From assembly GCA_943736015.1 (NCBI GenBank), contig OX031059.1, forward strand, positions 55,749,159-55,813,158: a stretch of DNA of 64,000 bases. The letters are read 5' to 3'. Of the stretch, positions 29,807 to 57,686 are shown one piece after another. Position 1 is the first letter of the stretch. Each line of letters begins with the position of its first letter. Below the pieces are notes generated by a model. The model was not told the DNA's origin. It ran no database searches and worked only from the letters and a program-made list of their open reading frames with translations. The position numbers were made by a program, and so were the translations under genes. The DNA is from Tridacna crocea (Eukaryota > Mollusca > Bivalvia > Cardiida > Cardiidae).

Positions 29807-32800
29807 CTGTTAAACAGATATAAAAAAAAGTTTAAAAATAATGGCATCATTCGAGCCTCACTTGATATATTGTTTGCCTGACTGTATGACACATCTCAAA
29901 TTTTGAGATCTGGTAAATGTTAAATTGAGCTAAGTTTCATTTTTTCACCATGTATTCATGACTTTCTTAGCTTCTTCAGTTTAATTCATTACCAAAGGAC
30001 AAAATTTTGGACTGGCCCAAATTGAAAGCATTTGCGGATGACAAAATAAATGTGAATGAAAAATTGAAGTTTTATTTGGAAAGGGTAGAAAACATTGTGG
30101 GAAAAGGAGAACATGCACAATGTTTTTAAAAGGCTTCTTTCTCAGGGTTGTTAAAAGTAGGGATTGCATGGTATGGTAAAGAGTTAAAAGTAAAATTATT
30201 AGCAATGACAAAATTCAAGTATGAAAAACGACAAAGGGCAATAACTCAAAATTTAAGCAAGCAAGAGTTATGATTCCTGTGCACTGCACTCCCCCTCGAT
30301 GAGATCTATCCACCCATGAAATTTCATAACCCTAGCTAGTATAATTTTGGACATATGCTCTGGACAACATTCAAGTATGAAAAAACAACAAAGGGCAATA
30401 ACTCAAAAATTAAGCAAGCAAGAGTTATGACTCCTGTGCACTGCACTCCCCCTTGGTGAGATCTATCCACCCATGAATTTTGTCCTGTGCATGCCCCAGC
30501 TTTACAACTTGGGGTAAGACAGGCGTATCTTGCGACAATTTGCCGCTCTTGTTCCAAAATGTTTTCAAAAGCCTTTCTTCCTTGGAGTTGTTAATACTAG
30601 GAATTGTTTGGTAAAGGGTTTGCATTGATACTGAGGAGATGGTTTTAGTCTATTTACCTGCCATGGTCTATTTAAAGAAGCTAATTGTAGACGTCTGACT
30701 ACGTCATGACATGATATACGAGGAACATCACCGTTACAGACAGTAGACAGCACCAGTACTGGGACATGTGTGGCGGACCATCTTTCACTAACCATTGCCG
30801 TCAATTCAGTTAATCCATTCTCAACTGTCAAAAAAAAAAAAAAAAAAGGTCATTGATGGAAGTTTGTTTTTATGTTGATAAATAGTTTTGTACTACTATA
30901 TTTCAATTTACATAATGAAGCATGAAAATAATTCAAAATGTTGCTTTTCATATAATGCCTCTAAAACCCATTACCACACAGTCCCTACTTTTGACGCCCC
31001 TGAGAAAGACGCCTTTTGAAAACACTGTAGGAAAAGGAGAAAATGCTGGTAACCAGCATTTTCTCCTTTTCCCCCAGTGTTTTCTACCCTTCCAAGAACA
31101 AATTTCATTTTTTAGTCATCTTTATTTTGTCGTTTGCAAATGCTTTCAATTTGAACCAGTCTAAAAATATTGGCGTGTGAAAAAGAGTTATTACAAGTAT
31201 AGTCCTTGTTCTAAAACTCTTCGGTTATAGAAAATATTTTCAAATATGCAAAATTACTGTTGTTTTACCAATGCAAATTGCCATTCTTAGACTTTTTGGC
31301 ATTCCAAACAGTTGTATAAAACTATTAGAATTGCCAGCACAGCACAAAAATAAGGCAATGATTGCCAGTTAAAAGCAAAAAGCAATTGTTCCTTTTTCCA
31401 CAATGCAGTCCAAATCTGTCAACCGCATGGGTGTGCAGGCTTGTGTTTACAGCATAGGATGAAAGGTGAAAAAAAATAGTATTTAGATATGAAGATGAAA
31501 TTACCTGCTGGTTGATCCTGAGACGCATTCACAACATATACAAATCCATCCAACACTTGACAAAAGTCTTGAACTGCAGGTACCAAATCATACTTCACTT
31601 CTGAGTTTTCTGGCTCCCTGCTCTCTCTTATTAGTCTATTCTGTTTGGTTCTGTCACGATTCGCATTTTCTCTATCTTTTTTTGTACCTGAGTACAGCAC
31701 TGAGAGGTGGAACTGGACATCTTGATGTTTTAATGTAAAACCTCCTCCGACACCTGAAATAAAAGCATTTTTAACTCTACCACACGACACAATTTTAGAC
31801 TGGTTCAAATTGAAAGCATTTGCAGACGACATAATAAAGGTGACTGAAAGATTGAAACTTGTTCTTGGAAGGGTAGAAAACACTGTGGGAAAAGGAGAAA
31901 ATGCTGGTTACCAGCATTTTCTCCTTTTCCTACAGTGTTTTCAAAAGGCTTCTTTCTCAGGGGTGTCAAAAGTAGGAATAGTGTGGTAATGGGTTAACTA
32001 GATTTTTCCTTTCCCCACAATTTTCTTACAATTCATTAAAATATCCAGTCATTTTATCACCAATGAATTTGCCATCTGCAATTTCTTTCAATTTAGATGA
32101 GATTAAAATTTTGCCATTTGGAGATAGGTCAAATGGACTAGACAACAAAACTTCCATTCGTCCAAACTGAAAGCATTTGCAGACAACAAATAAGTTGGGT
32201 CACAAAAGATAGGTTTTGTTTTTGGAAAAGTTGAGAAAATAATTTGGAAAAATGAAGAAAATTCAGAATACAGGCATTCCCTTTATTTCCCACCATATTT
32301 TTTAAGGCCTTTTTCATGATTGTTTGGAAAAGGATTAAAAACTCATAAAAATCCTCACTTCTCCAATTTTGCAATCTGTTTACAAATTGAAAATTAAACA
32401 TTTATTAACCCTTTCCCAAACAACAAACTTTTGGACTAGACCAAATTGAAAGCATTTGCAGACGACAAATCAACTCTTGCTGAAAAGATGATTTCTGTCT
32501 ATGATAGGGTAGAAAACATTTTGGGAAAAGGAGAAAATGCTGGTTACCAGCATTTTCTCCTTTTCCCACAATGTTTTCAAAAGGCTACTGTTCCAGACCC
32601 GTAAAAACCAGGGATTGTTTGGGAAAGGGTTAAACATTGATGCTATTCCTTTGATGCAGGGAAGGTGCCAAAAGCTAAAAAAAATTAACCTCTGGCCTAT
32701 TCTTAGCTTGAAAAACCATTTGTCTCTGGGTAAGTTTAACTCTGTACCAAAAAAGCCCTGGTTTTAAGGACCTTTGGAAAGAAGCGTCTTGAAAACACTG

Positions 32801-35800
32801 TTGGAAAAGGAGAAAATGCTGGTAACCAGCATTTTGTCCTTTTCCAACAATGTTTTCTACTCTATCAAGGACAAATTCTGCCAATTGAACAACTTTTGAT
32901 GTGTGGTCTACATAATTATGTTTTCAGTTTGAGTAAGTCTAAAATTTTGTAAAGAGTTTACCAAACGACAATTGTTAGGTTAATCCAAATCGAAAAACAT
33001 TTGCAGATGACAAAAAAAAAGTGCAGACTAAAAGTTTGAAATTTGTTTTGTAAAGGTAACCAGCGTTTTTTCCTTTTCCGGCAATGTTTTCCAAAAGCTT
33101 CTTTGTCAGGGTGGTGAAATGTAGGGATTGTGTGGTAATTGGTTAATATCAGTCATGCTCTACAAAAAGAGGGTTTTATACATTCTGCAAAAAGTATCAA
33201 CCATTGTCAGCCTTTGCAGCCAGCTTAGTCTCATGTGGGTCAAAACTTTCTGCTATTTGTAAATTCTACTCACGTCCAAGGATATTCTACCTCCAAATCT
33301 AGACATTTTTTCTGACAAAATGGATTTTATGAAACTTAATCTGTAATTAACCTGTTAGCACACAGCAAAATTTTAGACCTATCTATATTGAAAGCAATTG
33401 CAGATGGCAATTTCACAGTGGCTCACATGGTGCAATTTTGTTTTGATAAGGTAGAAAACTTTGTGATAAAAGGAGAAAATGCTGGTAACCACCATTTTCT
33501 CTTTTTCCGACAATGTTTTCAAAAGACATCTTCGTCTAGGGCGTTAAAAGTCGTGGATGTGTGGTAAAGGGTTAAGTAATGACTTTATCACAAAGATGCA
33601 TTAAAACTTTTTTGTTTATGTATGGTGTTTGGTTGTGAGGTGGAGGGTTGGTCTCGTAACCAAAGGTCCCAAGTTCAATACCGGGGAACAGGTGTCAACT
33701 TTGGGATTTCTCACTGGTCCACACATTCGATGTGAGTACTGGTGTAGCTCTCAGGAAGCAGAATCGAGAGAGATTAGTATAAGTTGTAATAACTTGTTTC
33801 TCAATTGATGTAATTTGCCTGAGCACCACTTGCTATATTTTTGGTTGCCAAGAAGTTAAAAAGTTTTTTTTCTTTTTAAGTGCTGTTCACCCATTTACAG
33901 AACCTGTCAAATTTGCAGGAAATAAACAGAATCAAGCATACCATCAAACTTTCCTGGGAAAATTCCAACTGTCTGAAAATTTGGCCCATTCATAATACGT
34001 CTGACTATTGTACTGGTGTTGGACTCTAAACCTGGGCCAAACATGGCAAACATGGAAACCTTTCTAGGAATGAAATAACGTAGGACACTTGATATGTTAC
34101 TGAACATTGTGTTTTGTTGATGCATCAGTCTGTTAATTTCTGGAGAACATCTGAGGTAGCTGAAATGAAATACACATACAACAATGATCTTATCAGATGA
34201 TATAGAATATGTCAACACTATGCCTATGAATACGCAGATAAGCGAAGTATTACTGAAAAAGGAAAAATACATAGAGTGGATCTCACCTATCTATGCTTTC
34301 CTGGGGCAGTATTCACCAACCATTCTTGAGAATATTCTTACTCTTATTCTCCAGAATTTTCTATATTTGAAATTTCTATTTTTGAAATTACACAACTTCT
34401 GATTGGCTAAACCAAATGGTTTAGCCAATCAGAAGTTGTGTTACTTACAAATAGAGAAAATCTTGGAGAATAAGACTATGAATATTCTCAAGATTGGTTG
34501 GTGAATCCAGGCCCTGGAGTTTCTTTTAGCAGTGCTCTGCACAATATTGTTTACAAGTCACATTGTTACAAGTTGCTCGTCTACATAACCATAGTTGAAA
34601 GGGTCAGCAGTAAGAGAGGAATGAATCCTGTCACAATGACTATCATCAATCCTCAGAAAGAGCTTGGCCAAGCCAGAGATCGAACCAGTGACCAGCTCTC
34701 AAGTCTTGTACACTACCGACTGGGCCTAAAGTCTGGAGGAACCAAGTGAAATATAGAATGGAAAGTTAATCCAAGGTTTGCCATCAGCAATAATGATTAA
34801 ATGTCTTGGGGGAGAAGAATTAAGTCTTTATGAAATGCAATCATATCAACCATAAATTTTACATACATAGCTTTGTTGGGCCAATCTGACTCTACCTCCT
34901 TGTAAAGATCTGGGTTTGTATTGTGTCCAATCACATTCCAATGCTTCACATCCCTGTCCAGTAGCCCTTGCCACAGAAGGTTGTCCTCTGTTATATCATA
35001 CCAACTTCTACAAACTCGGGAAGCTCGACACAAATCTTTGGCTGATAGGTAGGAAAATATGTGAAGTCTCACATCAACCTTTGTGGGAGTGAAAAATGAA
35101 AAAGAACATTAAAGCCATACTCTGTTTAAAGGGAGCTAATTATGCATCTCAATAAACAAGGGGTAAGTTGATTGATTTATGGTGTTTAACGCCATTTTCA
35201 ACATTATTTCATTTTTATGGCAGCAACCAGTGCACCTATCTATGCTTTCCTGGAGTTTCTGTTACCAGTACTTGTTCTCTTTCCAAGCCACTGGCTGCTT
35301 TCCCACATAACCATTGTTGAAACAATGATTAGCAGTGAGAGAGGTATGAAACCTGTCACAATGACTATCATCAATCCTCGGAAAGAAATTGGCCAAGCCA
35401 GGGATCGAACTCGTGACCTCCTGTTCTCAAGTCCTGTACGTTACTGATTGAGCTGCGAGAGCTAGGCATAAGGGGTAAGTGCAAGACTATTGTAAGTGCA
35501 TATACAATGTATATGCACTTACAATAGTCTTGCACTTACTCCTCGATAAGGTGCAGTCCACACTGGCTGATCTTAGTCAAACTGATTAGCTACATGTATT
35601 AGTTGATTTTCTGCATGTCAAGGACCACTAAATTCATGAATCATTTGGTTTTAACTCTTGACGAAACAACAAACTTTTAGATTGGTCCAAATTGAAGGTA
35701 ACGGGCTTGTTCGTCCCTGGGCTTGTTCGCCCGGGCTTGTTCGTCCGGGCTCATTCGTCCGGGCTTGTTCGTCCCAACTGATTTATCCTTGATCCGGGCT

Positions 35801-37247
35801 TGTTCGTCCCAACTTATGTACATGTATCTGCCAACCAAAGTGTTCATAGTGAATTCTTCACTTATTTTGATTTTGAGAAGGTTTTAACTGCGCATTACTG
35901 CCTTCCATTTTACTCAACCAAAGTTATAACTGTACAAAAAAGATCCCCATCACGTTTATAGAAGAAACCAAAAGTAAAAGAAATGTGGTGGCCGTGACGT
36001 AGAGTGTCGGCCTCGTAACCAAAAGGTCCCGAGTTCGATTCTCGGGAGCGGGTGTCAACTTCAGGATTTATCATTGGCCTACACATTCGGCGCAAGTACT
36101 GGTGTAGTTCCCAGGAAGCAGAATCGAGAGAGATTAGTATAAGTTGTAAGAACTTGTTTCTCTATCTTGGTAAAATAAATATTTTTAAGCTAAACTGTTC
36201 CCATCGTTACGTTTAAAGAAGAAACTAAAGTAAATGAAAAATGCCAATGACGTCATCCCGTCATGCATCATGTTATTTAGGAAAGAAATTAAATTACAAT
36301 TCATATATACGTACATGTACATATGGATTTTCAATAAATATTGTAATGTAAGGCTGTTAGTCTAGGCAAGAGGCGATGCAGAGACATTGTGTGTCAAAGT
36401 CTTGAATAATTATTTCAGTTTCTGTTCTGTTTCAAAATACGACTTCAAGAGAGGCAAAAACAAAGCATAAGTAAGTTTTGTTCAAAATACTTGCATGTTA
36501 AAATAACAGTTTACTTGGAGGGCACATAGCGATTATATTCCAATAAGATCGAAACGGTGATATGGGACGAACAAGCCCGGACGAACGAGCCCGGGTGAAT
36601 AAGCCCAGGGACGAACAAGCCCAGGGACGAACTGGTTTTGGGACGAACAAGCCCGGAACCCAAATTGAAAGTATTTGCAGACGACAAAATAAATGTGACT
36701 AAAGAATTGAAATTTGTTTTAGGAAGGGAAGAAAACATTGTGGGAAAAGTAGAAAATGCTAGTTACCAGCATGTTCTCCTTTTCCCACAATGTTTTCAAA
36801 AGGTTTCTTTCATTGAGGTCTTAAAAGTCGGGTTTGTGTGGTGAAGGATTAATACAAAATGGATTTATATGGATTTATAAGTTTGACAACTTGCTTGGCA
36901 TTACCCATTACGAAGATGCATTTAACTAAAAGAATACAAAAAAAAAAAAGACTTACAGGTAAAGATTCAAACTTCGACTGTGCCTGGCAATTTTCTTCCC
37001 TTTCTTTTCTCTTCTCCATCTGTCTGTTTAAATACTGCTGTAATCCACCAGAACATACCTTCAAGTCATCGTCCATATCTCCCATGTACTTCTTATATTT
37101 TCGAATTAGATTTTTGAAATGAAGCACTGTCTTTTGATCAATCACACACGTTTCATTTTCAGAATATAAAGTTTCAGAAGACGCTGGTTGAACTGTCAAG
37201 GCAGTGTCTTGTAACATGCTAAATGACATCTGTTGGATGTCCATCAT
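29726..37247 (-). CDS. FBXO4: F-box only protein 4 (SCF ubiquitin ligase substrate receptor)
   Basis: Six coding exons on the minus strand: 37247-36957, 35078-34867, 34159-33942, 31753-31505, 30824-30658, 29806-29726; all junctions GT/AG and in phase, 405 residues (human 387). The F-box starts at LPVDVRLHIFSYLSAKDLC (about residue 95) and would bind SKP1. The C-terminal half matches the FBXO4 domain that in vertebrates adopts a small-GTPase-like fold and binds the telomere protein TRF1: KVSMFAMFGPGLE, HLSVLYSGTKKDRE, DFCQVLDGFVYVVNAS, VLVLSTVCNGDVPRI, SLNRPWQ, then EGFTWLAEQSQRR at the end. The N-terminal 94 residues resemble no domain I know. MITE copies fill the introns; one lies 18 bp upstream of exon 4. 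Assignment rests on colinear motif matches over the whole length. Confidence 0.94.
29981..30187. mobile_element. Hairpin MITE with tip deletion
   Basis: GGAGAACATGCACAATG: the inner stem and loop are lost. FBXO4 last intron. Confidence 0.75.
30212..30500. repeat. Two-unit tandem repeat, 156-bp spacing
   Basis: TTCAAGTATGAAAAA, AAAGGGCAATAACTCAAAA and CACTGCACTCCCCCT each occur twice at a spacing of 156 bp. Lies in the last intron of FBXO4. AGGGCAATAACTC links it to the array at 2560-3290. Confidence 0.75.
30658..30824 (-). CDS. FBXO4: FBXO4 exon 5
   Basis: Acceptor TGACAG after a long A-run on the plus strand, donor GTAAAT. Encodes VPVLVLSTVCNGDVPRISCH and LNRPWQ, equal to PLLVLSCISQGDVKRMPC and LNHPWL. 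Confidence 0.93.
30962..31190. mobile_element. Hairpin MITE, subfamily A
   Basis: CCCATTACCACACAGTCC start; FBXO4 intron 4. Confidence 0.75.
31505..31753 (-). CDS. FBXO4: FBXO4 exon 4
   Basis: Acceptor TTTCAG, donor GTAATT. Contains FHLSVLYSGTKKDRENANRD and QDFCQVLDGFVYVVNAS, matching ILILYSTTRKERDRARE and KVCEVVDGFIYVANAE. Confidence 0.94.
31771..31997. mobile_element. TTAA hairpin MITE beside FBXO4 exon 4
   Basis: Complete copy 17 bp upstream (in transcript sense) of exon 4, so only the TTTCAG acceptor and a few bases separate them. Stem type AAAACACTGTGGG with A core. Confidence 0.85.
32405..32633. mobile_element. TTAA hairpin MITE, mixed A/B type
   Basis: Closely similar to 19812-20040, including AGATGATTTCTGTCTATGAT; complete with both TTAA. 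Confidence 0.85.
32736..32961. mobile_element. TTAA hairpin MITE, subfamily A
   Basis: TTAACTCTGTACCAAAAAAG start, stem with GTTGGAAAAGG; followed head-on by a copy at 32958-33145. Confidence 0.75.
33347..33575. mobile_element. TTAA hairpin MITE, subfamily A
   Basis: TTAACCTGTTAGCACACAGC to GTGGTAAAGGGTTAA; body variant CACAGTGGCTCACATG. Confidence 0.82.
33640..33800 (+). mobile_element. tRNA-derived SINE, family 1, diverged copy
   Basis: GGTCTCGTAACCAAAGGTCC, AAGTTCAATACC (box B) and AGCAGAATCGAGAGAGATTA match 35975-36185. In FBXO4 intron 3. Confidence 0.78.
33942..34159 (-). CDS. FBXO4: FBXO4 exon 3
   Basis: Acceptor TTTCAG, donor GTATGC. Contains KVSMFAMFGPGLESNTS, aligned with RFAMFGPGLEELNTS of human FBXO4, and ends at KFDG. 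Confidence 0.93.
34265..34745 (-). mobile_element. SINE family 2 copy interrupted by a TATTCACC MITE
   Basis: CACCTATCTATGCTTTCCTGG resumes after the MITE as CCTGGAGTTTCTTTTAGCAG and continues to AGATCGAACCAGTGACC. In FBXO4 intron 2, between exons 2 and 3. Confidence 0.75.
34305..34512. mobile_element. MITE, TATTCACCAACC termini, intact copy
   Basis: 208-bp nearly perfect inverted repeat, centre CTAAACCAAATGGTTTAG, with CCTGG duplicated at 34300-34304 and 34513-34517. It interrupts a SINE2 copy. Other copies: 26544-26738, 46443-46837, 53881-54306, and an old one at 5455-5610. Confidence 0.8.
34867..35078 (-). CDS. FBXO4: FBXO4 exon 2 (F-box)
   Basis: Acceptor ACAAAG. VDVRLHIFSYLSAKDLCRAS then LWQGLLDRDVKHW, typical of FBXO4 (LWRYFLLRDLPSW in human). 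The donor GTATGT sits inside a longer open frame. Using it gives AIYLRCSP across the junction, matching human AVYKMCCP, so the open frame running on to 34797 is intron read-through. Confidence 0.9.
35165..35462 (-). mobile_element. tRNA-derived SINE, family 2, minus strand
   Basis: Complement of the family 2 order: TGGTGTTTAACGCC at the left, CTGGCTGCTTTCCCACATAA, then GGATCGAACTCGTGACCTCC (box B complement) and GAGCTGCGAG. Confidence 0.82.
35470..35543. repeat. 74-bp foldback, family F1
   Basis: Arms AAGTGCAAGACTATTGTAAG and complement, centre ATACAATGTAT. Shares arm sequence with 264-338 but with paired substitutions. Confidence 0.75.
35697..36660. mobile_element. Mutator-like element, GGGCTTGTTCGTCC arrays, copy 2
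   Basis: 964 bp inserted in a hairpin MITE (35651-36852), with the MITE bases CAAATTGAA duplicated at 35688-35696 and 36661-36669. Termini GGTAACGGGC and GCCCGGAACC. It carries an inserted SINE (35975-36185) that explains its extra length over copy 1. Confidence 0.85.
35975..36185 (+). mobile_element. tRNA-derived SINE, family 1
   Basis: Starts GTGGTGGCCGTGACGTAGAG (box A-like), box B GAGTTCGATTCTC, then a conserved body (ACTGGTGTAGTTCCCAGGAA, GAATCGAGAGAGATTAGTAT). Inserted in Mutator-like copy 2. Confidence 0.82.
36957..37247 (-). CDS. FBXO4: FBXO4 exon 1
   Basis: Starts MMDIQQMSFSML (first of two Met codons chosen), ends KFESLP before GTAAGT, phase 0. The F-box begins across this junction (LP|VDVRLHIF). 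Confidence 0.88.
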
Positions 37248-37416
37248 TGTCTCGTCTTACTCTGTATAAAATACTTCCACAAACGACTGTACAATTGAAT
37301 CTCAACATGGTCATATATATGTTACAATGAACTATGCTATATTTATCTACGCAATCTCTCGCCCTGTGTTTTCTTCCAACGTGTCCGGATATCCTATGTT
37401 TGGGAGTGAGACACTT

Positions 37417-38833
37417 CACAGTATATAAACGATTTGTACCCCAACCGGATATTGCGAGTAAATTTCAGTGATGTCCACTTTGCATTAGAGACAGCCGAGA
37501 TAAAAATTGTTGCGTCTTTTATACTGCTGAATGTAAACTATTTGAATCTTTATGTATAGTTTATGCCACACCTGTATTGTTACTACATAAACTGCTACAT
37601 AATCATTCTTAGCTTTAAAACATTGAAATTCTCAATACTCACCGCAGGCTACAGCGTCATTTGCAGTAGACCCGATCTTAAATCGGCTTTTATCATGTTA
37701 AGGCTGGCTGAAACACGTTTTCTGAGTTCGAACCGGTGCAATTAATTAATTAGAAAAGACATTTGCGGCATTGGGCATTTTAAAGTTCGATTTTGAACAT
37801 AAAAAATAAGAATTAATGCCTCTATGTAAAGTAGGTCAACTGTACGTTTCTTGCTGGTGATTCGTACCCTTACTTGCGAGTTTACGAAATCTATCTGTAC
37901 GATGTCTTGGGAGTTTTTTCAAATATTCTGTACGGTTCTTGGGATAACAAATCTGATGCCTGATGGTACATGTATAAATCTGTACATTTTCATCTATAAA
38001 ATGGAGTAATTCAGATGCCGTTGCAGCAAACTGTCAAACAAACACAAGCTTTGGTGATATAATAAATCATAATTTGGAAATCTATAACGGAAAAACCTCA
38101 AGATCAAAATGTCAGAATTTGCAAAGTGTTGTGGCAAAGGGTGAAATTGCTTGTAACGAGGAGTTCCACCTTTTGCCACAAAAATTTCAAAGATTCTTCA
38201 GTACAACTGCATCGAAATGACAATGTAAGGAATAAATTGCCGGAAACAAAGTTTGTATTGATCACTCTAGTAACATGCGTAATGGATGCATCGCTCTTGT
38301 ATAGGTATAAAGCAATGGAAATTCCAGTGTGGTACTCGCAAGAATTCGTTCAGCCAACTCGCAAGTAATGTACAGATCATTTACTTGATATTTGCAAGAA
38401 GGGTACAGTATCAAACCGTTCGCCATGCAGAATTTCCATACATTTTTAGGTAATTTTAACAAATTTTGTCGGCATATATTGGCTGTTTTGTGAAGAGCAT
38501 ACATTTAGAAACAAAACTTTACAAATGGGTATCGGATGAAAAAAAGGAATTGTACATAAATTGCCTTGTGAAAACAGCATGTATAGTAGTGAGCAAAAGA
38601 AGTGAAGACGAGTATTGCACTTGATCAGCAATTACACGGCCAAAAATGGTAAATGATGTGTTTATTTGAAAGGTACATTATTTCATTCAATGATGCAAAT
38701 GTTTACAAGTTGCGTGAAAGTCACAACAACCTGTCGATCTCAATTATTCAAAGGCACCCATCTGTTTTCATCAATCGAATCATGGAATTTACTCGCAATA
38801 TCCGGTTTGGGTACAGTTCGTTTATATACTGTG
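37417..38833. mobile_element. 1.4-kb element with CACAGTATATAAACG termini, 4-bp duplication
   Basis: Inverted ends of about 50 bp (CACAGTATATAAACG..., AACCGGATATTGCGAGTAAA) flanked by ACTT at 37413-37416 and 38834-38837. It sits in the left terminal array of the 37402-42282 element. CAC...GTG ends with a 4-bp duplication suit Chapaev-like elements; that is inference. Interior has a degenerate hairpin-MITE core at 38118-38200. Confidence 0.72.
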
Positions 38834-39314
38834 ACTTAGACCCCTGACCATTTAGACCCCTTAAAATATTGATTTTTGGGTGACAGCTAGACCCCTTTGA
38901 GACACTTAGACCCCTTAACATTGGAGACACTTAGACCCCTATTTTTATTTTTGGGACATAGATCGTTTTTAGTCTTTTTTTTAATTGTTGTTGTTTAATT
39001 TACCTCTATTTAAAAAAAAAGAATGTTTTTCAATCACAACTTTATGAAATTTATGTGTATTGCTATTTTTTTTTTATAGTTCTTTCATTTACCTGTTTTT
39101 TTTTTATTAATTTACCTGTATTTTTCAATTCACAATTTTATGAAATATTGTTGTATTTTTTTATTGTTGTTTAATTTACTTGTATTTTTCCCATTCACAC
39201 CTTTATGAAAAAGATGATATAAAAATAACAAATTGGATTTGGGAAAGTTAGACAGTACTGTGGGAAGAGGAGAAGATCCTGTTTACCAGCATTTTCTCCT
39301 ATACTAACTATGAT

Positions 39315-39475
39315 TTAACCCTTTACCGCACAATCCCTACTTTAGACGACCCTGAGAAAGAAGCCTTTGCAAAACATTGTGGGAAAAGGAGAAAATGCTG
39401 ATAACCAGCATTTTCTCCTTTTCCCACAATGTCTTCTACCCTTCACAAAATTTCAACTTACAAATCTAAAATTTG
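39315..39475. mobile_element. Hairpin MITE, right-truncated
   Basis: Left end and hairpin intact; breaks off after CCCTTCACAAAATTTC. Confidence 0.75.
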
Positions 39476-39536
39476 AAAGCTGTTGTACAGTATTAAAATC
39501 TTTTTTATTTGTTTCATAACTGAAAAGTATTCCTTG

Positions 39537-39761
39537 TACCCTTTTATTACATAATCCTGACTCCAAAAGATCCTGAGGGCGAGGGCTTTTTAAAACATTA
39601 GAAAAGGAGAAAATGCTTGCAGCCAGCATTGTCTCCTTTTCCCACAATGTTTTCAACCCTTTTAGGGGCATATTGTATAATTTTAACCACATTTAACTTA
39701 TTGTCTGCAAATGCGTTCAGTATGGACAATTCCAAAACTTTATGGTGCTATAAAGGATTAA
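39537..39761. mobile_element. Hairpin MITE, old copy
   Basis: CCTTTTATTACATAATCC to CTATAAAGGATTAA; tip GCTTGCAGCCAGC. Confidence 0.68.
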
Positions 39762-40465
39762 TGTAAATTGATGGATTTATTAATGTGACTGAAGGATTGA
39801 AAAGAGATATAGATAGAAAGAAAGAAGGGTGGATAAATGAATACTAGGGGCATAAATTCAAATGATGAAAAAAGGGATATCCCTGTATATCAATTTATTG
39901 TCCTTATCTTATCTATCCCCAGTCAAAGGTGTTAATTGGATCATGAAACATCCTTTCAGAAATCCCTTAACTCTTTGCCAGATACTAAAACTTTTGACTT
40001 TGTTAAATCCAAAGAATTAGCACACAATAAATAAAGTATGGCTTACATTTGTTGGTTCTGTCTTTTGAAGACTGAAAACACAGTGGGAAAGGAGGAATTT
40101 TATTGATTTATGGTGGTCACTGGTCATGTTGAACAGTTTGAGTCTGTCAATTATTACTTGAAGCTTTCTAAAATTTCTCATACCCCCTTGCAATGAAACT
40201 GCATATTGTAAATTTTGTTTATATCCATTTTTGACCACTTTCTGCCTCAATCTTTACTATTAAAGCCTATTTACTCTTTGTTAAACGACAAAATTTTAGA
40301 CTGGTCCAAATATATTGAGGCCGAGGCTATCCGCACGACGGTCGTGCCGATAACCATTCTTATTCGCACGACAGTCGTGCTGCTAAGCACCACTATCCGC
40401 ACGACAGAAAATTAGTTACTGACAGTACTTTAACTATTGCGTTTGGGAAAAAAATATTCACTTTT

Positions 40466-40694
40466 TTAACCCTTTACCAAACAATCCCTGGTTTTAACGA
40501 CGCTGAGACAGAAGCCTTTGGAAAACATTGTGGGAAAAGGAGACAATGCTGGTAAATAGCGTTGTCTCCTTTTCCCACAATGTTTTCTGCCCCGCTGGAA
40601 ACAAATTTCAATTTTTCATTTGCATTTATTTTGCTGCCTACAAGTTCTTTCAACTTGGACCAGACTTAAATTTTGTTGTATGGAAAAGGGTTAA
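40466..40694. mobile_element. TTAA hairpin MITE nested in the GCACGAC-array element
   Basis: Complete with both TTAA; core GCTGGTAAATAGC and stem GGAGACAATGC/GCGTTGTCTCC. Confidence 0.82.
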
Positions 40695-41065
40695 AGGGGG
40701 AATAGGGTTTAGGTACCGGAAATTTTGTTTGCCATTTATCAAAGCCGTCTTTTTTTTTTTTCATTTTCGGCGGCCCTTCGATCCAATTACTTTTATTCTC
40801 AAAATTCTAAAGATATCACCGATTGTGCGGATAGTTGTGGCCATTGAGGGTAGGTGATCAGGCTAATTTTTCCCCTTCTTTGACTGGGGATCGGGATCTT
40901 TTTTTTTTTCCAAGTTCCTCCTCCTCCTTCTCTCCAATGAAACTCAAATGTTTCTTCCTTTACTGGATTTGTTCCACAACACTCCTGTACATATCGCTCC
41001 ACTGGCTGATAGGCCTACGTAAGATCCTTTCACACTAAACATTATGTACAATACTTGGGAATGGT

Positions 41066-41289
41066 TTAAATCTTAATCCAAACGACAATATTTTGGATAG
41101 GTCCAAAGCATTTGCAGACGACAAAATAAATGTGACTCAAAAACTGAAATTTGACTTTAGAGGAGTAGAAAACATTGTGGGAAAAGGAGAAAATGCTATT
41201 TACCAGCATTTTGTCATTTTCCCACAATGTTTTCTCAAGGCTTCTTTCTCAGGGTCGTCAAAAGTAGGGATTGTGTGGTAATGGGTTAA
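41066..41289. mobile_element. TTAA hairpin MITE nested in the GCACGAC-array element
   Basis: Ends GTGTGGTAATGGGTTAA; core GCTATTTACCAGC. Confidence 0.8.
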
Positions 41290-41817
41290 AACATAAGACC
41301 CCCTTAGGCCTAAGATAAGGCTAAAATGAATAGTAACAAGAAGATTTCACTATATAAACCCTTGGCAATAATTTCGACCCTAGGGCTATGATTTACACGC
41401 TCTTGATGAAGGCCAACGACCGTCGTGCGAATACCGGACCTTATCGGCACGACTGTCGTGCGAATAAGGGACCTTATCGGCACGACCGTCGTGCCGATAG
41501 ACACTTCCATATATTGAAAGCATTTGCAGAGGTCAAAATAAAAGTGAAAATTCAAAATTTGTATGGAAGAGGAGGGAAAACATCGTTGAAAAGGGAGAAA
41601 ATGCTGATTACCAGCATTTTCTCCTTTTCCCACAATGTTTTCAAAAGGCTTCTTTCTCAGGGTCGTCAAAAGTCGGTACTGAGTGGTAAAGGGTTCATAC
41701 AAATTTATAAAGGTAATTAATCTAAAGTCATACATTTACTTTAACTTACCAGACAAAAGTTTGTTACTCATATTCTACTAAAAATACCAAACATGTGGAA
41801 TTTTGAAAAAGCAATTA

Positions 41818-41990
41818 GCATACAAATACAAATACAAATTCAATACTTTATTGGTGACTTAGGCCTCCGGCCCATTACACATGAAAATAACAGCATAATA
41901 CGTATACAACACCAGGAATAAACATACAAATACAAAGATAAATTTTACATATAATACAATACAATTACGATGGAAAAGAACTAAAAATAG
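41818..41990 (-). repeat. Possible LINE 3' end
   Basis: Read on the minus strand: ATGGGCCGGAGGCCTAAGTC, CACCAATAAAGTATTGAA, then (ATTTGT)n. An AATAAA followed by a short tandem tail resembles mollusc non-LTR element 3' ends. Confidence 0.4.
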
Positions 41991-42396
41991 AGATGGCTGT
42001 TTAAATTTTCTGTTGACTTTTGGTAATTAAAAATCATTTCATGAGCTACTGTATTTCTGTATCAATATATGGTATCAAAAGTCAAAATACTTATTTTATG
42101 TTTCAAGACAAGATTTACAAGTAATACAATCCATAAACATAGTCAACTGATATGTGAATTCTCTTTTTGAAAATAGGGGTCTAAGTGTCTCACTAAAATA
42201 GGGGTCTATGTGTCTCAGGGGTCTAATTGTCATCCAAATTTTAAGGGGTCTAAATGGTCAGGGGTCTAAGTGTCTGACATCCCCTATGTTTTTGTTTACA
42301 TTCACAACCATGCGTCATCGCCTTTTCTCGATAAATCTCGCTTAGCCCGAAGATTACCGAGCGGTGATGTTTTATTTTCGTTTTGAAACGAGGCAA

Positions 42397-42425
42397 CTTC
42401 CTTTCGCCATCTTTCTGGCCTAGAC
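42397..42425 (+). promoter_or_regulatory. RPL37 5' leader with TOP-like pyrimidine tract
   Basis: CTTCCTTTCGCCATCTTTC ends a few bases before the ATG. A pyrimidine tract beginning with C at the cap site (5'-TOP) is the translational control signal of animal ribosomal-protein mRNAs. The exact start site is inferred. Confidence 0.65.
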
Positions 42426-42428
42426 ATG
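42426..42428 (+). CDS. RPL37: RPL37 exon 1 (ATG only)
   Basis: ATG followed at once by GTAAAC. Exon 2 opens at phase 0 with ACC AAA GGT (TKG), so the initiator alone lies here. Confidence 0.85.
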
Positions 42429-45400
42429 GTAAACTGAACTTACTATCGTGTCTAAATCTACTTACATCACACTATCCAAACTATTTGATGAAATAAAATT
42501 ATCGATTCCATTGCGTATATTCGACTCCACATCGATTCTAACCAATTTGCTTCTCATATGAAGAGAGGAAATGCACATAAGGAGAAATTGAATTTCACAT
42601 ACAATATTTTAAGTTTTCAACCGCAGTTTATACATGTTACTAGTATTTTTTTCATTTTTAGATATATTTGTGGACATCACATGATACGTAAGATTTTTTC
42701 CAGAAGTAACTAACAAAAGTATTTGACCGTATTTTATTTTTTTTTTCAAGTAAAGATATTTGACTCTAAAACTGTGTCGTTTGGAAAGAGTTGGAATTGT
42801 GGTCTTAACCATTTCTCAAACGACAAATTTTAGATTCTTCAAAACTGAAAGAGTAGACGACAATTTTAACTTTCATAAGAATGGCAGAAAATTACCCGAA
42901 TGGGCAGAAAACACTGGGAAAAGGAGAAATTGCTTGTTACGAGCAATTTCTCCTTTTCCCACAGTGTTTTCAACAGACTTGTACTGCAGACACGTTAAAA
43001 CAAGAGTTTGTTTTGGAAACGGTTAAAGGCTTACACTGATTTTACTTTCAGACCAAAGGTACATCCAGTTTCGGAAAGAGGCATAACAAGACCCACACAC
43101 CGTGTAGACGTTGTGGGCGCCGTGGGTTTCACATACAGAAGAAAAGATGTGCTGGTTGTAGTTATCCTAGTGCAAAAATGAGATCATGTGAGTTTTCAGA
43201 AACACTAAAATCTTAATTGATCGAGTTGTATTGTTTGTATTCAGCTTTGAGATATGAACATTTAATCACAGCAGCAGTTAATCTTTACATGTGTATCCAG
43301 GCAGGTTTTGCAGAAACCAAGCTAGATCTTGTAGGTGCCCTTCTTTGGATTGATTTGGGTTCTCTAGGTAACAAAATCATAAAATGGGCCTACCTCATTA
43401 TCTCCTGCTAGATGGCATTCTATAAATACTCGTCTATCTAATTTGGGCATCCTGGGTACAGAAACGAACCACTTGCCTACGCGACAACCGTTACTTTGAA
43501 TTTCAAACTACAGTTAAACGTTTACTCAATAAAACGCTACTTAGTGCAATTCACTCGGCTATGATCAGCGGTATAGAGAAATCTGGAGCTAAAGCAGTTC
43601 TCGTTTCTCCTCAAACCTATTGATAAAAGCTATTTTCTACATTCAGGGTTCTCCTTTGACCCGGGACTCCGGGTTTTGACGCTTGGAAATCCAAAATTAC
43701 CTGTTTCTGACGCTCAAAATAATCTGCCTAAGCGTCAATCTGACGCACGAGATTTCCAGTCAAAGGGTCATATAAATTATGTTGCATACGTCTGGCAGGA
43801 ATGTAGACTATAATAAACATGATCAGTACCAACTGTGTAAAGACGCAGCTCTGTTTATCACACGTAATCAAGCTGTCGAGTGGCGAGTCATTTATGAAAA
43901 CATGATAAAGGTGCTAATCCAATTATCTAGTTTAAAATGACAGGTTTTCAAGTTAACTGCTTATCTAATTAACAAATTTATGTCAAAACATGCACTAGTG
44001 CTTGTAAAAGAATTAACAGATTTGGAAAAAAAGATCGCTAGAGAAAGCGTGAAAACCCATGACACAACAGAGATCAGTTTGACATCGTCCAATCAGAGGC
44101 ACTTCAAACTATCTTTTCATCTTTACTAACAGATTTAAACAGTGAATTTATACTTATTTTTTCACGAAACAATAAGTGAAGGCTAAAATCTCTGTTTATA
44201 AATTAGGATTTTTTTTTTTTTTTTTTCTGGGGGGGGTGGGGGGAGATGGACGTTAGACGTTAGGTCTTCTTGTCTTAAATCATTAGTGCTGAAAGAATAG
44301 TGAAAGATAAAGAATTTAGACAAGAAAAGAAAACTTAAACCTTTAGAAATAACACTTTAACAGGCCTTTACATTCTCCCTTTTCCCACAATGTTCTAGGC
44401 CAAGAAAGACAAATTCAGTCATCCCAGCCACATTTGAATTGTCGTCTGCAAATGTCTAAAATAATTATGATGTAGATAGTCAATTTTTTTTGTTGTTTGG
44501 TAAACTGTTCAAAAATGTTATTTGTGTCCATTTATTTATCAAGATGAATTGCATACTAGGGCTGGGGTCCGACGAATCACCGAAATACCGAAATACCACC
44601 GAAACACCGAAATACCCCATTTTTTTTTTTTTAACAATTAAGTCAAATAACTGATATAAGTGCGAAAATTTTGTCGTTTTTTTTTTGTGTGTGTGTGTTT
44701 TTTGACACAAGCTAATGTTTATATTGATGAAAGGTAGTTAATTTAAAACAAAAGGACAAAATAACAACATACCATTGACGTCCGCTGTAATGGATGTTCT
44801 CCGAAATACGAGGCCGTTGTCCACCGTAATACCCACACGACGTAGTAAAATGCAACTATTCAGGAAGTTTATGTTGCTACTACAGTAGCTGTTTTACAAG
44901 GTTGATGTGTCAGATCTATATTCATAAATATGCTCGGAAAAATTGGTTTTCTTTTGTGATATTTGGAGAATGAAATTAAAAATTAACGGATCTAGAAAGA
45001 CATCTGGCCGCCATTTTGAATCGGGTACACATGTTACCCGGTCTTAATTTGTAGACCTGTCTGTCTAAATTCCACGTCTACTGACGATAATCCATATATC
45101 GATTACGATCTAAATAAAATAGATTTAATTCCAGTTCACCCCATAGGTCCGTAAATATAGTGGAAAAAGCAGAAAATATTGTCAAATGCGACACGCGCGT
45201 GACGATGGATACATCACGCTATGCTAATTTAGGTGCATTTACTTCGTTCGCAAATGGAACGCACTTGCATACTTTGTGTTTATGCTTTAAAGAAATGAAA
45301 TATAGGTGATAATTCCATCTGATGACTCCCAAGTTTGTATTTTGTGTAATAAAGGTCATGTATTTCCGTGTGTCAGGACTTGACAAGCGAGTATTTCGGT

Positions 45401-48400
45401 GATTGTTCTTCACGTGAATCAATGATCAATGTATACTAACGACATTTTTCTGCAATCTTCTACATTAATCTTCTCTATAGTGATCATTACTTTAACTAAT
45501 CGTGTTTTATGTGAAAAAGAGCCAAATCTTGCGGAGGTTGAATCCCTAGATCAGCAAATATTTACAACGTCGATCGGGTATTTCGGTGGACATACGTCTG
45601 TCTCGGTGCATTGTTTACGTCGGGTCCCAATGATACGTTGTTATTTTTTCATTATGATTTAAACTAACAGCCCTTCATCTCTATTGCCATTGTTTGGGTC
45701 AAATTCCACAAAAAAAAGATAAATCTGTTGAATTTCAATAGTAATCATAACACAGTAATAAAAAATTAGGGGTATTTCGGTGTTTCGGTGGTATTTCGGT
45801 ATTTCGGTGATTCGTCGGACCGCTAGGGCTGCAATTTAAAGTTCTTCTGTCCACTGCATTCTAAGGGTATTTTCTTATCTAATTTCCTTCCCATAAACAA
45901 AGAATATAAATAGAAAGTTTTCAGTATTTCACTCTTATTTCTCCATGATAATTTTGACCCTTGGACATCACTATTTGACTCTTGGAAATATCATTTTGAC
46001 TCTTGAAAATTTGGGCTCAAGAGTCAATGACTCTTGGGATTCTGGACCTAGGGAGAACCCTGTACATTGCTACTTTATAGAGCGTAATATTACAGTCGGC
46101 CTGCTTTCGGGGCTAGTGATGCGTCATACAAGACTGTCAAATCCTCGAAGAATACGACATGCGCAGACAACGCGGCCTACCCGTGTCCATCATGTGACCA
46201 TGTGTGTGCCCTTGTTTGTGTGTGTTTACTTCAATTTCAAACATAAACTCTGAAACTGCCATGCCAATTTTAACCAAACTTCATGGAAATGATCCTGCCA
46301 TGGTCTTCTTCAGAATTTCATTAACCTGAATTTGCCATAGAAAGAGCATATTGAGTAAATGTATTGGTCATTTCAAGTACCTAGCACAGATAACTCTGCC
46401 CGAGTATGATTTAGTGTTGATAGGTTGCATCTGGGTACACAGGGGCCGTATTCACCAACAATTCTTAACTCTCTACCACACAAAATTTTAAACTGGTCCA
46501 AACTGAAAGCATTTGCAGATGACAAAGGTGACTAGAAAATAGAAATTTGTTCTGGGAAGGGTAGAAAACACTGTGGAAAAAGGAGAAAATGCTGGTTTCC
46601 CACATTGTTTTCAAAAGGCTTCTTTCTCATGGGCGTCAAAAGAAGTGATTGTGTGGTAATGGGTTAAGAATGTTATTGGTCACAGTCTCCAGAATTTTCT
46701 AAATTTGAAAATAACGCAACATCTGATTCACTTAACCATTTGGTTTAGCCAGTCAGAAGTTGTGTTACTTTCAAATTTAGAAAATCTTGGAGAATAAGAT
46801 TAGGAATATTCTTAGGAATAGTTGGTGAATACGGTCCCAGGTGTACCTCATTATTCACTTACTTGTTCAACAAGATCCTTTTTTATGGATCCATTATTAA
46901 TTTATGTGATGGGCGACTTGCTTGCTGTAATGAATCATGGAGATTTATTAACTCTATACCAAAAGACAAAATTGTGGACCAGACCAGACTGAAAGCATTT
47001 GCAGATGACAAAATAAAAAGGACTGAAAACTCGAATTTTTTTTGTGAAGGGTAGAAAACATTGTGTGGAGAGGAGAAAATGTTGGTTACCAGAATTTTCT
47101 CCTTTTCCCCCCGTGTTTTCTGAAGGGTTCGAGTCCCATGATGAGGAAGGTCTAGCTACCTTTGCAAGAACTGTTTAACGCTTCACCCATTACCACACAA
47201 TCCCTACTTTTGACGCCCCTGAGAAAGAAGCCTTTTGAAAACACTGTAACCAGCATTTTCTCCTTTTCCCACAGTATTTTCTACCCTTCCCAGAACAAAT
47301 TTCAATTTTCATTCACCTATATTTTGTCATCTGCAAATGCTTTCAATTTGAACCAGTCTAAAATTTTGTTGTGTAGTAATGAGTTAAAGCCCCTTTCATG
47401 GCTTTAGTGATCTTTGCAGCCATTGTAGTTTAAAAACGTGCAGCCTGATCTTTGATCTACACCCTCTGGTTTGCAGGAACGTAGCAGCCATAAGCAACCA
47501 TGAAAATTTTACTTCTCCTTTAACGCTTTACCAGATGACAAAATTTTAGCCCTGTCCAAATTGAAAGCATTTGCAGATGACAATTTCATTTTGGCTCAAA
47601 TGGTGAAATTTTTCTTTGATAGGGTAGAAAACATTGTGGGAAAAGGAGAAAATGCTGGTTACCAGCATTTTCTTCTTTTCCAACAATGTTTTCAAAAGGG
47701 CTTCTTTTCCAAGTGGGCCAAAAGTCAGGATGGTGTGGTAAAGGGTTAATGAAGGGCTATGTTGCTTCATGACAAAGCTTGTCTCTTGCAGATAATTGGA
47801 GTGTGAAGGCCAAACGCAGGAAGACCACTGGGACTGGACGTATGCGCTACCTTAAGATTGTACACAGAAGATTCAGGTATAAAACTACCGTAATTTGCGT
47901 ATATTTTGGGACACCCAAAGAATTGGGACACCATCAAAAATCACGAAAATAATTATTTTTCATGACCCAAAGATTTGGGACATACTAAAAATTGCAAAGC
48001 AAGATAGGTAATTTTTTGTTCCAAAGAATTGGGACAGTGAATATCTTATTTAATTTTCTTTTTTCAATCCATTGATAGGCCTACCCTTTGCAAATATTTA
48101 GATCTATTTCTCTTAGTTTTATTTTTACGCTCATAACGTCGTAAGCATGCTTCCCAACTCTCCCCATTTCAATGGGACGAGACGAAAAACCCGATCACCT
48201 GATTGTCTAATGTAAACCCCAATTCAAAAAGAAATCCGACGTAACTGTAAAAAGGGTGTGATAAACTTCTATCCAAGATCCATAACATGTATAACGTGTG
48301 TGTACATCAGGTTAACAGAGTTGACACGCGTGTATTTTACGGTCAATCGAGTTTGTTGTTTATAAATAGAAATCTAGGTACACAGTTTTACCCAAGGTTT

Positions 48401-50095
48401 ATCGATCAAAGATCGACAAACCAATCAAATTTGAGAACGGTCCGAGCAGGTACTTGTCAAGAGTGCAGTTAACGTTGCTTACCTCGCGTACATGTAAGCA
48501 GGTAAAATATGTTGTGAATTTTTTCTACAAACGCAAAATAACATCTTTATTGATATCCCAAGATGCAAACAAAAATGAGAGAAAAGTTCGTAATCAAAGA
48601 AAATCACGAGCTCTTAGTGCTCAAACTGATCGGTGGAATTCCAATCAGTCTAAAAATAGACCAACCTGCAAACCTGACATCAATCACGTTGCAATATTTC
48701 AACGTCGGCAATATTCGACGTGTTAGCGGCGAGTGACTTTCACTTTGACAGACCGTCTTGTTTGACCATAAGTTTGACCATAAGTTTTGGGACAGCTGAC
48801 AGAATAATTATTTTTTGTAGACCAGAGTATTGGGACACGAAAAAAATTAATTATTTTTTGCTGTCCCAAAATTTAAGCAAATTACGGTAATTCTTTCTAC
48901 AAAACAGTAACTGTTGCTTTTGTTGGCTCTATATATTCTAAGCACCTTACCTGATTTTGAAACTATTTCACAGATTCATACACATGTAGATAACCAAAAT
49001 GATTTATTAACTCATTACCACATGACAAAATTTTAGGCTTGTCCAAATCGAAAACAGTTGCAGACGACAAAATAAAAGTGAAAATTTGAAATTTGTTTTT
49101 GGAAGGGTAGAAAACACTGTGGGAAAAGGAAAAAATGCTGGTTACCAGCATTTTCTCCTTTTCCTACAGTGTTTTCAAAAGGCTTTTTTCTCAGGGGCGT
49201 CAAAAGTAGGGATTGTGTGGTAATGGGTTAAGCCTTTTACCACACAATGACGCCTTTTAATGACCGTGAGAAAGAAGCCTTTTGGAAGAATTGTGGGAAA
49301 AGGAGAAAATGCTGGTAACCATCATTCTCTCCTTTTCCCACAATGTTTTCCACCCTATTTAAGAAGAATGCTTCATTTGAGTCACATTGAAAGTGTCGTT
49401 TGCAACTGCTTTCAATCTAGACAAAGTAATTCTGTCATCTGGTAATGGGTTAAACAACATTTAACCCTTTACCACAGGATCCCGACTTTTAACGACCCTG
49501 AAATGAAAGCCTTTGAAAACATTGTGGGAAAAGGAGAAAATGCTGATAACCAGCATTTTCTCTTTTTCCCACATTGTTTTCTCCCTTTCCATATAAAATT
49601 TCAATTTTTGATTCACATTTATTTTGTTGTCTGCAAATGCTTTCAATTTGGACTTGTCCAAAATTTTGTCGTTTGGTAAAGGGTTAGCACCATAAATCAG
49701 TCGATCAATCAAAGTTAGATACGAAAAGATTGAATCAATTTTATAGTTATCTCTTTACCACATGATAAAATTAAAGACTGGTCCAAATTCAAAGCATTTG
49801 CAGAGAAAAGCACAAACCGTGGTTAAAGGAATGAAATTTGTTTCGGACATGGTAGAAAACAATTTTGGTAAAGAAGAAAATGCTGGTTGGAAGCATTTTC
49901 TTCTTTTCCCACAATGTTTTCGGAAGATTTTTTCTTCATTGTTGTTAAAACTGGGGATTGTGTGATAAAGAGGATCAGTAAAATTACATGGATTTGGTTT
50001 ACTCTCTCTTCAGAAATGGTTTCCGAGAAGGCACAGTCCCTAAACCACGTAAATCAAGAGCAGCAGCCCCTTCCACAGCTGTAGCAACAAAATAG
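42426..50095 (+). CDS. RPL37: 60S ribosomal protein L37 (eL37)
   Basis: Four exons: 42426-42428 (ATG only), 43052-43187, 47792-47876 and 50014-50095; 101 residues, close to the usual 97. The product begins [17 protein letters not shown], has a C4 zinc ribbon (C19-x2-C22...C34-x2-C37; [18 protein letters not shown]), the block [23 protein letters not shown], and [18 protein letters not shown] at the end. eL37 binds rRNA in the large subunit. The ATG-only first exon is the same layout as in vertebrate RPL37. The introns total about 7.4 kb and are largely repeats, which is long for such a highly expressed gene. It is divergent from FBXO4. Confidence 0.97.
42805..43026. mobile_element. TTAA hairpin MITE, subfamily B, beside RPL37 exon 2
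   Basis: TTAACCATTTCTCAAACGAC to TTGGAAACGGTTAA, core GCTTGTTACGAGC; ends 25 bp before exon 2, so the polypyrimidine tract lies just outside it. Confidence 0.82.
43052..43187 (+). CDS. RPL37: RPL37 exon 2 (zinc ribbon)
   Basis: Acceptor TTTCAG, donor GTGAGT. Encodes [18 protein letters not shown] through [13 protein letters not shown] with all four zinc cysteines. Confidence 0.97.
43644..46062. mobile_element. CAGGGTTCTCC-ended element (hAT-like), 2.4 kb
   Basis: Ends CAGGGTTCTCC and GGAGAACCCTG; TACATT duplicated at 43638-43643 and 46063-46068. The copy at 62 kb reads straight through (TTTTCTACATTGCTACTT), giving an empty site. CAGGG termini suggest hAT, but 6 bp is shorter than the usual 8-bp duplication. 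Confidence 0.75.
44565..45822. mobile_element. Mutator-like element, CACCGAAATAC terminal arrays
   Basis: 1258 bp with 9-bp duplication CTAGGGCTG (44556-44564 and 45823-45831). Ends GGGTCCGACGAATCACCGAA and complement; each terminus iterates CCGAAATAC/CCGAAACAC. Lies inside the 43644-46062 element, making a three-deep nest. Open frames inside are not recognisable. Confidence 0.8.
46443..46837. mobile_element. TATTCACC MITE split by a TTAA hairpin MITE
   Basis: GGGGCCGTATTCACCAAC ... GTTGGTGAATACGGTCCC. The 46465-46667 hairpin MITE is inserted at the TTAA of TTCTTAAGAATG. Confidence 0.8.
46465..46667. mobile_element. TTAA hairpin MITE nested in a TATTCACC MITE
   Basis: TTAACTCTCTACCACACAAA to GGTAATGGGTTAA with a deletion at the hairpin tip (AAATGCTGGTTTCCCACA). 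Removing it with one TTAA restores TTCTTAAGAATG as at 26570. Confidence 0.88.
47182..47387. mobile_element. Hairpin MITE with left stem deletion
   Basis: AAAACACTGTAACCAGCATT: the left inner stem is lost. RPL37 intron 2. Confidence 0.75.
47520..47749. mobile_element. TTAA hairpin MITE beside RPL37 exon 3
   Basis: Complete; ends 42 bp before exon 3. Body variant AATTTCATTTTGGCTCAAAT. Confidence 0.83.
47792..47876 (+). CDS. RPL37: RPL37 exon 3
   Basis: Acceptor TTGCAG, donor GTATAA. Encodes [20 protein letters not shown] and LKIVHRRF. Confidence 0.97.
47885..48896. mobile_element. 1.0-kb element, CCGTAATTTGC termini, TA duplication
   Basis: Left TA-CCGTAATTTGCGTAT, right GCAAATTACGG-TA, with subterminal TTGGGACA/TGTCCCAA repeats at both ends. 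A TA duplication suits Tc1/mariner-pogo class MITEs; inferred. In RPL37 intron 3, starting about 10 bp after exon 3. A related left end (CCGTAATTCCCCC..GGACGG) lies at 57687-57790. Confidence 0.65.
49007..49231. mobile_element. TTAA hairpin MITE, subfamily A
   Basis: TTAACTCATTACCACATGAC to GGTAATGGGTTAA; shares the terminal TTAA with 49228-49453. Confidence 0.83.
49228..49453. mobile_element. TTAA hairpin MITE, subfamily A, adjoining
   Basis: Second of three head-to-tail copies, followed after 7 bp by 49461-49686. Confidence 0.8.
49461..49686. mobile_element. TTAA hairpin MITE, subfamily A
   Basis: TTAACCCTTTACCACAGGAT to GGTAAAGGGTTAG. Confidence 0.8.
49747..49972. mobile_element. Hairpin MITE beside RPL37 exon 4
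   Basis: Old copy (both TTAA mutated) ending about 40 bp before exon 4. Confidence 0.7.
50014..50095 (+). CDS. RPL37: RPL37 exon 4 and stop
   Basis: Acceptor CTTCAG. Encodes [20 protein letters not shown]...ATK and TAG at 50093-50095. Confidence 0.96.
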
Positions 50096-57301: not shown

Positions 57302-57425
57302 CTAACATAACAATATTTCCTAAATTGATGGAATTCCCATGATGTTTTCAAAAACATTGTTCTCTAGGGTCGGTATATTGATTGGTAACAGATTATCTAT
57401 CACACACTTTTGGACTTGTTTACTT

Positions 57426-57654
57426 TTAACCCATTACCACACAATCCTGACTTTTAACGACCCTGAGAAAGAAGCCTTTAGAAAACATTGTGGGAAAAGG
57501 AGAAAATGCTGGTAACCAGCATTTTCTCCTTTTCCCACAATGTTTTCTACCCTTCACAAAACAAATTTCAAATTTGCAGTCACTTTTATTTTGTCGTCTG
57601 CAAATGCTTTCGATTTGGACAAGCCTAAAATATTATTGTTTGGTAATGAGTTAA
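57426..57654. mobile_element. TTAA hairpin MITE, subfamily A, well preserved
   Basis: TTAACCCATTACCACACAAT to TGGTAATGAGTTAA with a perfect central palindrome; another good reference copy. Confidence 0.88.
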
Positions 57655-57686
57655 AGGTTTTGCAGACAAACATGGATCAAATAATA

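Follow-up and report, generated by a model that had tools for sequence, protein, structure and literature searches.

A nest of transposable elements between the divergent FBXO4 and RPL37 genes of Tridacna crocea

The sequence analyzed (the window) is a stretch of 64,000 nucleotides from Tridacna crocea (assembly GCA_943736015.1, contig OX031059.1, positions 55,749,159 to 55,813,158 of the forward strand), and coordinates are those of the window throughout. Within it, FBXO4, on the minus strand, and RPL37, on the plus strand, are divergently oriented, with their ATG codons at 37247 and 42426, and the DNA between them contains a transposon-like insertion, itself interrupted by other elements. 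The present distance between the two ATGs is 5,178 bp; once the insert and one copy of the duplication flanking it are removed, 288 bp are left, of which 154 bp adjoin FBXO4 and 134 bp adjoin RPL37. A preliminary description of the region had estimated about 150 bp for FBXO4, about 105 bp for RPL37, measured to a TOP-like (terminal oligopyrimidine-like) start, and about 260 bp for the two joined, figures which agree with those obtained here by counting to the ATGs. The gene names proposed there are borne out by Pfam and Protein Data Bank (PDB) matches.

The RPL37 frame is intact: four exons, separated by GT-AG introns, encode a product of 101 amino acids followed by a stop codon, and this product matches the Pfam domain Ribosomal_L37e (7.5e-27). 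The exons are listed below, with the evidence used for each.

42426..42428, plus strand: coding portion of RPL37 exon 1, consisting of the ATG (splice model and translation)
43052..43187, plus strand: RPL37 exon 2 (homology search, Pfam, translation)
47792..47876, plus strand: RPL37 exon 3 (homology search, translation)
50014..50095, plus strand: RPL37 exon 4, with the stop codon (homology search, translation)

FBXO4 was traced through its first coding exon, which has an in-frame stop directly upstream, and through a series of conserved segments, for which a human FBXO4 sequence was used as the tblastn query.

36957..37247, minus strand: first coding exon of FBXO4, 97 codons, with its ATG at 37247 and a GTAAGT donor
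34797..35078, minus strand: exon of FBXO4 with the F-box, frame open as far as its stop, donor position not fixed (Pfam F-box-like, 5e-19)
33919..34158, minus strand: FBXO4 conserved block with MFAMFGPGLE, exon ends not fixed (tblastn, 7.1e-7)
31524..31760, minus strand: conserved block of FBXO4, exon limits not fixed (tblastn, 4.7e-12)
30655..30822, minus strand: FBXO4 conserved block close to the C-terminus, exon ends not fixed (tblastn, 3.7e-6)

The translation of exon 1 finishes with ...FESLP and exon 2 goes on with VDVRLHIFSYL; the junction peptide resembles ...LTRLPIDVQLYILSFL of human FBXO4. The blocks at 33919..34158 and 31524..31760, when joined, match PDB entries for 'F-box only protein 4' (3l82, 3l2o and 9jkb; best value 2.6e-19). 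Judging from the sequence, FBXO4 is thus recognisable by its F-box and by its matches to solved FBXO4; since the later exon ends are not fixed, an intact frame is established for the fixed exons only. In the intron between exons 1 and 2, tandem repeats of the unit CGGGCTTGTTCGTC are found at 35702-35774 and 36565-36656, in opposite orientations; they are possibly the ends of another element.

The insertion lies between the two genes, and its main parts are the following.

37393..37401, plus strand: left target-site duplication, CCTATGTTT (8 or 9 bp)
37402..42282, no strand assigned: outer element including nested DNA, 4,881 bp (42283 would be its last base with an 8-bp duplication), from the inverted arms inside the duplication
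37402..37416, plus strand: outer left terminal repeat, first 15 bp, severed by the inner element and resuming at 38838 (arm alignment)
38838..38945, plus strand: remaining part of the left terminal repeat of the outer element, in which AGACACTTAGACCCC subrepeats occur
42170..42282, minus strand: outer right terminal repeat (arm alignment)
42283..42291, plus strand: right target-site duplication, CCTATGTTT

The duplication falls exactly where the preliminary description had placed it. The interval 37402-42291, which had been called inserted DNA separating the genes by about 4.9 kb, measures 4,890 bp and corresponds to the insertion plus one copy of a perfect target duplication. The latter is 9 bp long if the terminal repeats are taken to begin with GGGAGTG and GGATGTC, at equal length, and 8 bp long if they begin with GGGAGTG and GGGATGTC, one C/G being ambiguous. 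The 8-mer CTATGTTT is not rare by itself, as it is found at 4 places on the plus strand and 3 on the minus strand of the whole window, and identical 8-mers at this exact spacing occur in 4 of 59,102 position pairs, two of these four being the duplication itself. The insertion is accepted, as had been claimed, because matching inverted repeats are bounded by the two copies of the duplication, and not because of the rarity of the 8-mer.

The two arms of the terminal inverted repeat are 123 and 113 bp long, and the segment 38834-38945 is 82% identical to inverted 42170-42271 over 113 aligned positions. When the inner element is left out, the arms align with a score of 137, compared with a maximum of 25 among 300 single-base shuffles. 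A chance repeat was considered and rejected on the basis of these scores and of the duplication at the repeat ends. The subrepeat AGACACTTAGACCCC, searched with up to 2 mismatches, occurs 6 times in the window versus 0.10 expected, and all 6 occurrences are within the two outer arms. No second copy of the outer element is present in the window.

The preliminary description had spoken of a nested transposon; the nesting is confirmed, and the wording was too modest, as the insert holds at least four element families. They include an inner element, a third element, here called N2, and copies of a miniature inverted-repeat transposable element (MITE), here called M1.

37413..37416, plus strand: ACTT, left copy of the 4-bp duplication flanking the inner element (arm alignment)
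37417..38833, no strand assigned: inner element, 1,417 bp, with ends CACAGTATATAAACG.../...CGTTTATATACTGTG and terminal repeats of about 56 bp at 91%
38834..38837, plus strand: ACTT, right copy of the 4-bp duplication flanking the inner element (arm alignment)
39222..39316, 39310..39459, 39537..39761 and 39960..40097, no strand assigned: four M1 matches in the outer element (nhmmer)
40265..41700, minus strand: M1 copy split by N2 (nhmmer matches 40265-40311 and 41501-41700)
40310..40318, plus strand: left 9-bp duplication of N2, ATATATTGA
40319..41508, no strand assigned: N2, 1,190 bp, with GG termini and inverted repeats
40461..40697, plus strand: M1 copy inside N2 (nhmmer, 213.8 bits)
41066..41294, minus strand: M1 copy inside N2 (nhmmer, 216.9 bits)
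41509..41517, plus strand: right 9-bp duplication of N2, ATATATTGA

Omitting 37417-38833 together with one ACTT restores the outer left repeat, and the inner insertion is supported because the intact right arm provides, within the same outer element, an empty-site control for the left one. The M1 copy interrupted by N2 consists of the halves 40265-40318 and 41518-41700, one copy of the duplication being omitted; without N2, it aligns to positions 3-229 of the M1 consensus, with 199 identities among 221 aligned bases (gaps left uncounted). At the ends of N2, only 4 of the 8 outermost bases agree, and a good match is found from base 9 on, so that the precise limits of N2 are set by its duplication and by the MITE that it interrupts. 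The deepest chain of nesting runs from the host to the outer element, a MITE, the third element and a further MITE. The terminal repeats of N2 (40327-40407 and 41416-41494) are made of 33-bp units containing the palindrome CACGACNGTCGTG; they give the impression of a protein-binding array, and this is an impression only. Likewise as an impression only, the stretch 41810-41960, with CAAATACAAATTCAATACTTTATTGGTGACTTAGGCCTCCGGCCC, which has no second copy in the window, resembles the 3' end of a retroelement.

M1 is a non-coding, TTAA-flanked hairpin of about 230 bp, present in many copies, whose consensus centres on a 67-base palindrome with a single unpaired base in the middle. Its matches were found by nhmmer with a model built on 16 copies: 115 loci, fragments included, were matched in the window (E<=1e-3; for example, 696-977, 3417-3695, 10788-11071 and 57418-57663), for a total of 20,669 bp, or 32% of its length. 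TTAA was found at both ends, within the 46-bp stretch tested, in 37 of 61 near-full-length copies and was missing from this arrangement in the other 24; the corresponding figure for 5,000 random pairs is 8.6%. The insert 37402-42282 contains nine M1 matches, two of which are the halves of the split copy, leaving eight copies or fragments; among them is a weak hairpin match of 24.6 bits at 38117-38188, in the inner element. Five nested copies differ from the M1 consensus by 7-21% (gaps not counted), a divergence which gives no age, because copies may have differed already when they inserted. In viral contigs, neither the M1 pattern nor the outer-repeat pattern had any match, while protein scans with RPL37 matched 16 and 23 stretches, none encoding a relative.

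The coding content of the insert was evaluated on the 25 open reading frames (ORFs) of at least 60 amino acids, defined from stop to stop, lying wholly inside 37402-42282. No transposase domain was found in them by a Pfam scan, shorter or frame-broken remnants being outside the test; only matches below the cut-off were obtained, the best being DUF3528 at 0.0045. The possibility of a gene-bearing transposon was therefore rejected, as 0 of 25 ORFs match a transposase.

Each element was compared with known systems. Merlin elements have 5'-GG termini, 8- or 9-bp duplications and terminal repeats of 24-462 bp (PMC8101967). The outer element, and possibly N2, is similar in its GG termini, in the length of its duplication and in repeats falling within this range: the duplication is CTATGTTT (8 bp) or CCTATGTTT (9 bp), and the ends are GGGAGTG and GG(G)ATGTC, on the arms described above. 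Mutator-like elements, too, make duplications of about 9 bp. A Merlin element would be expected to have a transposase of the DDE_Tnp_IS1595 type, in itself or in an autonomous partner sharing its ends; the 25 ORFs of the insert yielded no transposase domain. As neither a transposase in these ORFs nor a further copy in the window was found, the outer element would be best called only Merlin-like, a Mutator-like origin also being in play. In PMC10294476, Merlin is described as nearly confined to cephalopods in repeat libraries, whereas an ORF-based survey assigns to bivalves at least one element of every superfamily; DNA elements, including MITEs, exceed long interspersed nuclear elements in bivalve genomes, according to the same source.

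The inner element resembles Chapaev/CMC in its CAC...GTG termini (CACAGT...ACTGTG) and in the 4-bp duplication ACTT; the scan of the ORFs gave no CMC transposase domain. A 4-bp duplication is what Chapaev makes. MITEs of the CMC type, unlike the inner element, are described as making 2-bp duplications (PMC6004678). M1 is similar to MITEs of the piggyBac/Kolobok type, because of its TTAA ends, size, lack of coding capacity and copy number, and is set apart from them by the central palindrome of its consensus. Kolobok also uses TTAA. The target of piggyBac is TTAA as well (PMC2874221).

As to the order of the insertions, the inner element would have arrived after the outer one had landed, if movement requires an intact terminal repeat. 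The M1 copies and N2 could already have been in the outer element at its arrival, and the insertion could then have measured, on arrival, anything from about 1.3 kb (the unique outer sequence) to 3.5 kb. The outer body is poor in CpG, with 4 CpG in 1,331 bp and an observed/expected ratio (o/e) of 0.14, versus 0.93 for the inner element, 1.10 for N2 and 0.52 for the whole window. This depletion fits an outer element that is the oldest of the set, but its original composition could explain it as well.

On its other side, FBXO4 converges with a plus-strand gene for TFIIF alpha (GTF2F1), at 13302-26161, where ORF peptides from 13302-13676 and 25916-26161 match Pfam TFIIF_alpha (6e-21 and 2.4e-18, respectively); an acidic peptide from 20879-21139, in the same region, had no match.

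The DNA left to each gene next to the insertion is the following.

37248..37401, no strand assigned: original upstream DNA retained by FBXO4, 154 bp, ending in the target duplication
42292..42425, plus strand: original upstream DNA retained by RPL37, together with its 5' leader, 134 bp

The RPL37 segment contains 10 CpG in its 134 bp (o/e 1.60), and the 142 bp at 42284-42425 are in the top 1.2% by CpG count and 1.7% by ratio among overlapping stretches of the window. In the 150 bp of 42150-42299, 0 CpG are found, and in the following 150 bp, 11. The same segment holds CTTTCGCC and CGCCATCTT, at 42401-42413, which resemble, respectively, a TOP start and a YY1 site; the 8-mer GCCATCTT occurs 4 times across both strands of the window. 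The FBXO4 segment contains 6 CpG (o/e 1.28). When the two are joined, the 288 bp contain 16 CpG (o/e 1.48), a value matched or exceeded by 1.0% of window stretches of the same length by count, and by 0.7% by ratio. Such composition would fit one CpG-rich divergent promoter, and two abutting promoters would give the same picture. A compact divergent promoter is likely to have been present before the insertion. Divergent pairs are commonly called when their transcription starts lie within about 1 kb; between the ATGs, the distance here was 288 bp before the insertion and is 5,178 bp now.

The proposal that a compact divergent promoter had been split thus stands for the insertion between divergent genes, for an original spacing below 300 bp and for the nesting; how far anything was split is where the following readings diverge. 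The preferred one, which we hold to be fairly probable, is that a GG-terminal non-autonomous DNA transposon inserted between two core promoters and that each gene kept its own. FBXO4 and RPL37 would originally have been arranged head to head, their ATGs separated by 288 bp, and a non-autonomous DNA transposon with GG ends, an 8/9-bp duplication and repeats of about 115 bp would have landed at CCTATGTTT, between the core promoters. Later, an element making a 4-bp duplication would have struck the outer left terminal repeat, while the M1 family and N2 may have arrived inside the outer element before or after its landing. The 154 and 134 bp retained up to the ATGs would be proximal promoters, probably enough for a housekeeping ribosomal-protein promoter, and an RPL37 promoter needing just the region adjacent to its start would keep working. 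We infer one shared promoter earlier and two independent ones now; both genes presumably still work, since the RPL37 frame is intact and the FBXO4 exons are recognisable.

Some observations weigh against this interpretation. The CpG content of the FBXO4 segment (37260-37401) is equalled by 15.5% of the 142-bp stretches of the window by count, and by 7.7% by ratio; CpG richness is also found in N2, in the inner element and in RPL37 intron 1 (o/e 1.12); and an upstream non-coding exon of FBXO4 could shift its start.

A serious possibility, which we lean slightly against, is that the insertion is real and the 288 bp held two close, separate core promoters which never formed one bidirectional unit, nothing having been broken. 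The more than 130 bp kept on each side, the position of the TOP-like and YY1-like sequences entirely on the RPL37 side and a CpG signal coming mainly from that side all favour it, whereas a spacing below 300 bp, far under the usual cut-off for divergent pairs, and a CpG o/e above 1 for the FBXO4 segment as well speak for a single unit. We consider it rather doubtful that a working divergent promoter was split into halves which are now independent, 5 kb apart, or partly driven by the nest, FBXO4 having lost its co-regulation with RPL37. It is improbable that the insert supplies regulation, with FBXO4 and/or RPL37 starting from promoter-like sequence inside the nest: the end of the inner element, CACAGTATATAAACG, carries the word TATATAA at 37422, some 175 bp away from the ATG of FBXO4, but a TATA-like word is expected by chance in AT-rich DNA, and RPL37 has no need of a promoter in the insert. 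A reading with no insertion at all, in which the repeats match by chance or were produced by faulty assembly, is hardly credible, since, despite the poor match between the outermost 8 bases of N2, three separate duplications each flank inverted-repeat sequence and two of the three joins were compared with a copy in which that sequence is uninterrupted.

Among the matches listed, no description of a head-to-head FBXO4-RPL37 pair was found in titles and abstract openings on ribosomal-protein or divergent promoters or on these two genes. Both gene names co-occur in PMC7515907 and PMC12645816, where 'fbxo4' also matches names like FBXO44. Some invertebrates, such as amphioxus, have many divergent housekeeping promoters, and some lineages have lost them; in amphioxus, 25% of neighbouring protein-coding genes are reported in bidirectional promoters, with an enrichment in housekeeping genes, and most of 372 putatively ancestral bidirectional promoters were lost in vertebrates (PMC6292497). 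In that study, the loss is inferred across genomes, whereas here a single locus is concerned, in which the separating insertion is still legible.

As an event, this is an ordinary transposon insertion at an interesting place. The locus adds an example to a known kind of change, here with the separating step still legible: to the base, the sequence shows where the outer element landed, which 288 bp originally lay between the ATGs and, in part, the order in which the insertions came. If one working promoter was indeed split, the locus would represent a stepwise, legible disentanglement of a promoter by a transposon. It lends itself to testing directly whether two core promoters separated by a few hundred bases are dependent on one another.

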